Source: Gemmatimonadota bacterium (GTDB taxonomy: Bacteria; Gemmatimonadota; Gemmatimonadetes; Longimicrobiales; Gaopeijiaceae). Taken from it: DNA of 64,000 bases. Location: contig JAJDTB010000009.1 of assembly GCA_022827345.1 (NCBI GenBank), positions 186,001-250,000 on the forward strand, in the 5' to 3' direction. The stretch's first letter is position 1. Each line of letters starts with the position of its first letter. Made by a program: the position numbers and the translations under genes. Shown here one piece after another: positions 55,435 through 57,438 of this stretch. The notes below the pieces were generated by a model, which saw only the letters and a list, made by a program, of their open reading frames with translations, ran no database searches and was not told where the DNA came from.

Positions 55435-57438
55435 TCAAGCCTGCTGCGGATTCGCACCGACGGCTGGCAGGTTGCCGTCTCCATCCCGGCTCAGGCTATC
55501 TCGCAGCGCCTGCCTGAACCGCTGCCAGGTTTCGTCGTCACCGGACGCGAACACGCAGCGCGCGCCCGCCAGCGCCAGAAGATCGCCGCTCGAATCGGGT
55601 TTGCGGAGCTGTTCCTCGAACGCAGCGCGAGACAGCACCCCGTCCAACCCGCGGCGCGGGACCGGCGCCAGCAACAGGTTGTCGCGCGAGAGCGCACGCA
55701 GCGCCTTGCGGAACCGGCGGACCAGTGCTTCGTAATACCCGGCGGCGCCGTCACACACGAACCGGACATCAAGTTCCGTCCCTGGCATCGCCCCATTGCT
55801 GGCCAGAGGTCCCAAAACCACCACCGCAACCCCGCCGGTGTCGCGCGGAACGCCCCGATCCTCGAAGTCCTCCTCGACCGCGGACAGGACGGTGGCGATG
55901 GAGGCCTCCGCGACGCGTGACAGCGCGATGCCCGCCTCGCTCACCGTCAGGCTGCCACGCATGACGTGCACGCCGATCTGGAAGACCTTGCCGTTCGACC
56001 ACTCCCGCGTGGCATCGACCGCCTCGCCGGCGTCCTGCATGTGGATGTCGGCGAGCTGCTCTTTCATCTCGGAGACGCCGAGTTCGTGCGTCCAGTAGAG
56101 TCGCGCCAGGCCGCAACGGGCGATCTTCTCGAATTCCGGGTCCGGTCCGATTCCCTCCGGCAACTCCAGGTCGGTGAATTCGCGGTCGCGAAGCCTGTCG
56201 AGCAGTACCGGGGATTCGTTGATCCACGCGGCGAGACGCGGCGACGAGGCGTGGATCTCGGCGATCACGTCGAATGCGTCGGGGCGCGCCGCGAACGCCC
56301 GGCTGTCGTAGGCGCTCCAGTCGTCTATCTGGGGATAGAACTGGGCACGCTGCCGGTCGAGCAACGGATCGATGGTCTCGAACCATCGCTTGGGGGACAT
56401 CGCCAGGGTGTTCATCTGGATGTAGCTGCCCGGCAGCTGCGGCGAGGCGCCTTCGCCATGATGCTGCAGGAGCGGATAGCGCCGATTGGACGTGTGGTGG
56501 TCGGCATGGCGCTGCATGTTGTAGTACAGCCAGTTCGTGAACTTGTACGCGGCACTCCAGGCGTGCCGGGGCTTCACCGGCTCGAACCTGCCGTTGGGCA
56601 TGCGTATGCGCCTGAGTCCGTAGTGCTGCACGTAGTTGCTGACCTTCATGGAGAAGACCACGCTGCCGCACATCACAAAGAACACGACTACGGCCCACAC
56701 CCCGCCGATCCAGTAGATGAGCCCATACCAAACGCCCAATTCCACGATGTAGCGCCAAAACGCATTCGTGTGATGCCAAATCGGGAGCTGACGCCGGGCA
56801 AGTCGGCGGCGTTCAAACCGCCAGGCGCCCAGAATGTTGCTCGCCACCTCTCGGGGAAGGTATTGCCAGAAGCTCACCCCCTTCGGCGCGGACCCGGGGT
56901 CCAGGGGCGTACACACGCGCGGATGATGGATGTACACGTGCTCGGTCGCGTAGTGCGGGTAGGAGACGGAAGCCAGCAGAAACTCGCCGAGCCGGCGCTC
57001 CCATAGGGCACGCCGATGAACCAGTTCGTGACCCACGACAAAGACCGTTTGCGCGACCATGGCCAGGATGCCGGCCATAAGCCCGATTTCCCAGAAGGCA
57101 AGGTGGTCGCCGATCAGCATCTGCCATAGCGCGAACACGAAGACGACCGGCCAGAACGCCGCCCACAACCAGAGCGAGAGCTTGTACAGGAACAACTGGC
57201 TCTCGCGGGTCGTGGCCGGATCCATGTTCCGTTCCTCCACGCCGAAGACCCTGTCGAACTGGTCTGCGAGCATGAAGAAGACAAACGGAACCGCAATCCA
57301 CCAACCGCCGTAGATGGCGGCGGCCACTACGAGCGGGAAGATGACAAGAGGAACGAAGTGCGGGAGAGCGTTCGAAACCGAGGGCTCGACTACCCGCGCG
57401 CCCAGGGTTGCCGAGGCGCTCGCACTACGTGCTTCCAT
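55435..57438 (-). CDS. Fusion: AlkB-type membrane hydroxylase + GlnE-like domain
   Basis: 667 residues; GGAGG nine bases upstream fixes the start. Residues ~1-340 are an AlkB-type non-haem diiron monooxygenase with membrane helices and all His clusters: GHELVHRR (136-143), EHVYIHHPR (166-174), NYVQHYGLR (268-276), QRHADHH (309-315) and LQHH. Residues ~385-650 resemble the adenylyltransferase domain of GlnE: SPRLAAWINESPVLLDRL, VMRGSLTVSEAGIALSRVAE, GTELDVRF (GlnE SDLDLIF site, with Glu in place of the first Asp), LALAGARCVFASGD. The pairing of an alkane/fatty-acid hydroxylase with a GlnE-like domain is very unusual. It is divergent from the NHLP precursor, 236 bases apart, so it may serve the RiPP cluster, or be unrelated. 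Confidence 0.82.
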   Translation of the reverse strand: MEARSASASATLGARVVEPSVSNALPHFVPLVIFPLVVAAAIYGGWWIAVPFVFFMLADQFDRVFGVEERNMDPATTRESQLFLYKLSLWLWAAFWPVVFVFALWQMLIGDHLAFWEIGLMAGILAMVAQTVFVVGHELVHRRALWERRLGEFLLASVSYPHYATEHVYIHHPRVCTPLDPGSAPKGVSFWQYLPREVASNILGAWRFERRRLARRQLPIWHHTNAFWRYIVELGVWYGLIYWIGGVWAVVVFFVMCGSVVFSMKVSNYVQHYGLRRIRMPNGRFEPVKPRHAWSAAYKFTNWLYYNMQRHADHHTSNRRYPLLQHHGEGASPQLPGSYIQMNTLAMSPKRWFETIDPLLDRQRAQFYPQIDDWSAYDSRAFAARPDAFDVIAEIHASSPRLAAWINESPVLLDRLRDREFTDLELPEGIGPDPEFEKIARCGLARLYWTHELGVSEMKEQLADIHMQDAGEAVDATREWSNGKVFQIGVHVMRGSLTVSEAGIALSRVAEASIATVLSAVEEDFEDRGVPRDTGGVAVVVLGPLASNGAMPGTELDVRFVCDGAAGYYEALVRRFRKALRALSRDNLLLAPVPRRGLDGVLSRAAFEEQLRKPDSSGDLLALAGARCVFASGDDETWQRFRQALRDSLSRDGDGNLPAVGANPQQA

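Follow-up and report, generated by a model that had tools for sequence, protein, structure and literature searches.

An AlkB-type monooxygenase and a relative of the adenylyltransferase GlnE are joined in a single gene in the stretch of 64,000 nucleotides analysed here (the window), and this gene lies among those of a proteusin RiPP cluster that corresponds to the srp cluster of sponges, a context that was not recognised in an earlier note made from the sequence alone. The fusion belongs to the srp cluster as firmly as YcaO does. As a standing member of such clusters it may encode a membrane diiron oxygenase that tailors the srp peptide or a molecule bound to that peptide, with the GlnE-like half serving as a docking pseudo-enzyme; we hold the case for this reading to be about evenly balanced. 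The features concerned are collected in Table 1.

Table 1. The fusion gene, its parts and the surrounding cluster genes (window coordinates unless a contig is named).
Feature	Position	Strand	Evidence or remark
AlkB-GlnE fusion, 667 aa	55435..57438	-	ORF; Pfam FA_desaturase 1.6e-23 and GlnE 2.5e-8; kept as a single ORF in relatives
AlkB-type membrane oxygenase half, residues 1-366	56341..57438	-	structure matches, ligand alignment; nine His ligands kept, Gln271 for Fe2 ligand Glu271
Helical part of GlnE-like module, residues 366-530	55849..56343	-	alignment, dN/dS, model; strongly conserved, omega 0.07-0.27
Nucleotidyltransferase core, residues 531-655	55474..55848	-	first Asp altered to give E-L-D, no third Asp; selection relaxed (omega 0.29-0.59)
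NHLP/proteusin precursor, 83 aa, ending ...ITEEQLEAISAG and then the core LCCCW	57675..57926	+	TIGR03793 leader_NHLP 3.4e-19; divergent from fusion gene
Flavin-dependent tryptophan halogenase, SrpI-type	58062..59390	-	Pfam Trp_halogenase 2.3e-44
NHLM HlyD-like secretion protein, start uncertain	59452..60096	+	TIGR03794 4.8e-5, partial, below cut-off
C39-peptidase ABC exporter, NHLM ABC1 type	60030..62279	+	TIGR03796 6.6e-253 (just under cut-off); Peptidase_C39 5.3e-35
NHLM ABC2-type exporter	62279..64000	+	continues beyond window to 65218 (window numbering)
NHLP leader-like domain fused to squalene-hopene-cyclase-like alpha/alpha domain	L074:10232-11533 (window numbering 65232-66533)
YcaO cyclodehydratase	L074:11536-13827		PF02624 5.7e-94; TIGR03604 above cut-off; 2.5 kb past window
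375-aa protein (ORF375)	L074:13823-14950 (window numbering 68823-69950)		no Pfam/NCBIfam match

The fusion gene and its AlkB half

The union of an AlkB-type monooxygenase with a GlnE relative, as proposed in the earlier note, is borne out by sequence profile, predicted fold and conservation. The ORF listing of the window gives an ATG start and 667 residues with zero internal stops, and the fusion is present as a single ORF in 16 of the 22 congeners sampled; outside the genus it occurs in further genera belonging to the same family and in a second family within the class. A survey of GTDB contigs for the same architecture, which the note had recommended, returned 25 fusion loci, most of them with srp-type cluster genes as neighbours. 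The note had also asked whether a frameshift or an assembly join separates the two parts in other genomes; the parts share one frame in many of them, the exceptions being one locus (L072) with a frameshift past approximately residue 500, and two copies (L038 and L064) with an in-frame TAG after residue 584. Since the same single ORF recurs in many genomes, on independent contigs, the fusion is neither a chance event nor an assembly join, and a frameshift is likewise ruled out as its origin. A search of viral contigs for relatives of the fusion found none. One genome carries two AlkB-GlnE copies (L100:6223-8649 and L059), one in an srp cluster and the other apart; the second copy of the L059 genome is 53% identical and is set between an NHLP-fused gene and YcaO.

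The NCBI labels of the fusion loci include Gammaproteobacteria, Vicinamibacteria and Acidimicrobiia. For two loci labelled Gammaproteobacteria (L061 and L064), contig copies and sequence correspond to a genome that the whole-genome set assigns to the same family as the window; the labels are therefore unsafe and no transfer between phyla is claimed. The source genomes appear to be those of sponge symbionts, because their isolate names (RHO, COS, CAR) match sponge species of PMC8163846 and because of the srp literature.

Over residues 49-363 the protein matches experimentally determined structures of AlkB (8f6t, E 6.9e-50; 8sbb, 6.1e-39). The nine His iron ligands of FtAlkB (137, 141, 167, 171, 172, 272, 311, 314 and 315; PMC10113152) are all His at the same residue numbers in the window protein and invariant across the fusion family, in agreement with the earlier statement that the N-half holds all AlkB His clusters. 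The Fe2 carboxylate ligand, Glu271, is replaced by Gln in all 35 distinct fusion sequences compared, so that activity of the AlkB half is not certain. The codon of residue 271 lies at window positions 56626-56628. An otherwise ordinary AlkB of the phylum (L107) carries Gln at this position too; the substitution was therefore dropped as a hallmark of the family and is not decisive for AlkB membership. No rubredoxin (PF00301), the usual electron donor of AlkB, was found in the window's genome (G000), though an AlkB-type enzyme is encoded there, and another redox partner must therefore serve. The model of the full-length fusion reached a mean pLDDT of just 66.7.

The GlnE-like half

Residues 457-567 match Pfam GlnE at 34.1 bits against a cut-off of 24 (E 2.5e-8), while the GlnE equivalog models of NCBIfam are matched weakly (9.3e-11; 40 bits against a cut-off of 724). 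When the C-half was compared as a profile with GlnE structures, as had been suggested, it matched 3k7d, the adenylylation domain of E. coli GlnE (E 2.5e-9). A model of the C-half, built on 433 aa from the full-length relative L054 (pLDDT 75, pTM 0.78), resembles both E. coli GlnE domains, with Z 30.3 over 377 residues for 1v4a and Z 27.1 over 361 for 3k7d. Structure prediction, a check that had been proposed, thus upheld the GlnE fold (Z 27-30); in the sequences, however, the catalytic Asp triad is broken. The fusion has one AT module, compared with two per protein in GlnE.

Full-length copies measure 799-810 aa and have a second, C-terminal Pfam match to GlnD_UR_UTase; the ancestral fusion was therefore a protein of about 800 aa with a complete GlnE module, including a GlnD_UR_UTase-like tail. 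This tail is missing in 19 of 36 distinct fusion sequences and has been deleted repeatedly, in some copies by an internal deletion that spared the very end of the ancestral tail. In the window lineage everything after approximately residue 655 is gone, and the window copy thus falls ~130 residues short of a full module, a truncation that the earlier note did not recognise.

The altered D-x-D site described earlier for the C-half (E-L-D) is seen as described, at the place where 3k7d has D-L-D. The site reads S-D-[LI]-D in 3k7d and in L094, a canonical GlnE of the family, which also has V-D-L-R-L-R-P. Among 35 fusion sequences, the position of the first catalytic Asp is occupied by E (20), T (8), K (4) and by G, A and D once each, and that of the second by D (33) or E (2), while the third Asp (that of VDLRLRP) and the VDxRLRP motif are absent from every copy; the first Asp of the GlnE triad is thus kept in 1/35 and the third in 0/35. 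The replacement E-L-D alone is no proof of inactivity, since nucleotidyltransferases other than GlnE tolerate [DE]x[DE], where Glu can be catalytic, and the GlnE of a congener has SELD. Pairwise dN/dS, a simple estimate with dS partly saturated, ranges from 0.08 to 0.26 for AlkB, from 0.07 to 0.27 for the helical part (366-530) and from 0.29 to 0.59 for the nucleotidyltransferase core, a pattern which points to the helical part as the portion kept by selection and to a core that is only loosely kept. Judged from sequence, the module has very probably ceased to be an adenylyltransferase, because the third Asp is lost, the first varies, the core is relaxed and the tail has been deleted repeatedly.

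The srp-type cluster

The core of the precursor, LCCCW, is identical to that of SrpE (PMC10858898), whose LxxxxL-type leader motif is also matched. In the published pathway, the core Cys residues of SrpE are converted to thiazolines by SrpC and the core Trp is brominated by SrpI (PMC10858898, PMC10286304). In the halogenase of the window, Lys102 and a PQQVS loop are 21 residues apart, like Lys84 and P105 of SrpI. The protein combining an NHLP leader-like domain with a squalene-hopene-cyclase-like domain, an enzyme with its own leader mimic, occurs in clusters with LCCCW cores, and ORF375 is conserved in nearly all srp-like clusters. The cores at fusion loci comprise LCCCW, LCCCG, RCCC and LSCCL.

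Gene order varies among the database loci, 21 of the 25 having at least two srp genes within 10 kb of the fusion. Of the four exceptions, two are contigs of 4.4 kb, and the remaining two (L053 and L059) have an srp YcaO elsewhere in the genome. Within the genus, an srp YcaO is present in 16 of 17 genomes with the fusion, the 17th having its fusion on a 4.5-kb contig, and in none of six genomes without it (Fisher 7e-5, kinship between genomes ignored). The brominase occurs in a subset, namely in 8/11 fusion carriers versus 0/4 others among the 15 genus genomes searched. In one genome (L084, that of L055), the YcaO gene of srp type is split into three frames and the fusion gene is intact.

Possible role and relation to known systems

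In the pathway that we propose, a precursor with a long NHLP leader and a core of 4-5 residues (LCCCW in the window) would be acted upon by YcaO, which would convert Cys to thiazolines, and, where present, by the brominase, which would halogenate the C-terminal Trp. An oxygen-dependent modification, of the srp peptide or of something bound to it, would be the contribution of the AlkB half. The GlnE-like half, with no nucleotide transfer left, would offer its helical part for docking, the simplest partner being the precursor leader or another of the cluster's enzymes, and the exporters would cleave and secrete the peptide. In such a scheme the nucleotidyltransferase core would be free to decay and the tail would be dispensable. 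The fusion is probably an overlooked peptide-tailoring enzyme. Trp was ruled out as a universal target of the oxygenase, the gene being kept with the cores LCCCG, RCCC and LSCCL; indeed, neither Trp nor Leu can be a universal target, because the enzyme persists alongside cores lacking Trp and, in L073, lacking Leu. A more specific and less probable version may be envisaged, in which an AlkB came to act on a ribosomal peptide as its oxidant and a dead GlnE, fused to it, took over recognition of the leader; this would be a novel type of RiPP recognition element, in clusters that are reported to encode no trans-acting RRE.

Known AlkBs oxidise alkanes via a membrane tunnel (PMC10113152) and core residues differ among fusion-bearing clusters, both of which would suit an AlkB half whose hydroxylation target is a small hydrocarbon or lipid, such as an acyl group that is subsequently attached to the peptide or a lipid of the membrane modified for self-protection, with the GlnE-like half merely anchoring it to the other enzymes of the cluster. 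The nine cluster genes include no recognisable acyltransferase, although the matchless ORF375 could be anything, and we consider this explanation rather unlikely. It is unlikely, too, that the GlnE-like half acts as a dock for an electron donor or as an interface stabilising AlkB, in place of the C-terminal rubredoxin of some AlkBs: AlkB-rubredoxin fusions do carry the rubredoxin at this end (PMC8918992), a sequence of the same class (L102) resembles such a fusion, and the window's genome yielded no rubredoxin, but the module has no recognised cofactor-binding motif and another donor would be needed.

Functions inherited from GlnE fare less well. Sensing of PII or glutamine, coupling peptide production to nitrogen status, would be in keeping with the fold homology and with the conservation of the helical part; however, no canonical GlnE was found in any fusion-bearing genome sampled within the family, which argues against a role in connection with glutamine synthetase, and nothing in the cluster indicates nitrogen control, making this very unlikely. 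The suggestion of the earlier note that the module adenylylates a product or partner does not stand, and continued nucleotide transfer to the precursor, a product or a partner is highly improbable. In its favour are the nearly invariant second Asp, the catalytic use of [DE]x[DE] in other nucleotidyltransferases, and the D-L-D of L073, the most divergent copy. Against it stand the loss of the third Asp and of VDxRLRP throughout, the T, K, G or A found at the first position in many copies, the relaxed selection on the core, the repeated loss of the tail, and one allele that is stopped within the core; an active adenylyltransferase was thus rejected on catalytic residues and selection. A docking pseudo-enzyme joined to an oxygenase of the srp pathway is the reading that we prefer.

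The srp cluster is itself already known; it is reported to be widespread in sponge microbiomes, and its product is still described as cryptic. The window's cluster shares with it the LCCCW core, the NHLP leader with LxxxxL, YcaO, and a flavin halogenase whose Lys and leader-binding loop correspond, whereas only the precursor SrpE, the cyclodehydratase SrpC and the brominase SrpI are described for the published cluster (PMC10858898, PMC10286304), and many fusion-bearing clusters have the other cores. No AlkB or GlnE gene was found in these two papers; the founding JACS report (Nguyen et al. 2021), which lay outside the search, may list the gene. Literature searches on AlkB with GlnE, AlkB with RiPP, and proteusin with desaturase, with that report again outside their reach, found no account of such a fusion or of a RiPP cluster containing an AlkB. 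A conserved oxygenase, present even where the core has no Trp to brominate, implies that the known chemistry of thiazolines and bromination is probably incomplete, and the fusion makes leader recognition in proteusins directly testable.

With other AlkBs, including the AlkB-rubredoxin and ferredoxin-reductase-ferredoxin-AlkB fusions (PMC8918992, PMC10113152), the protein has in common the PF00487 region, the nine His ligands and, as in some of these, a C-terminal partner; it differs in that the partner is GlnE-like and not an electron carrier, in having Gln271 for Glu271, in coming from a genome where no rubredoxin was found, and in its RiPP-cluster setting. With GlnE (the C-terminal AT domain 3k7d and the N-terminal domain 1v4a) it shares the helical part, the core and the GlnD_UR_UTase-like tail in the same order, but it has a single module with a broken Asp triad, lacks the tail in about half of its copies and is fused to a membrane oxygenase. 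As far as we have searched, no AlkB-type enzyme had been linked to a RiPP before, nor had one been joined to a pseudo-adenylyltransferase; the fusion would be the first in both respects.
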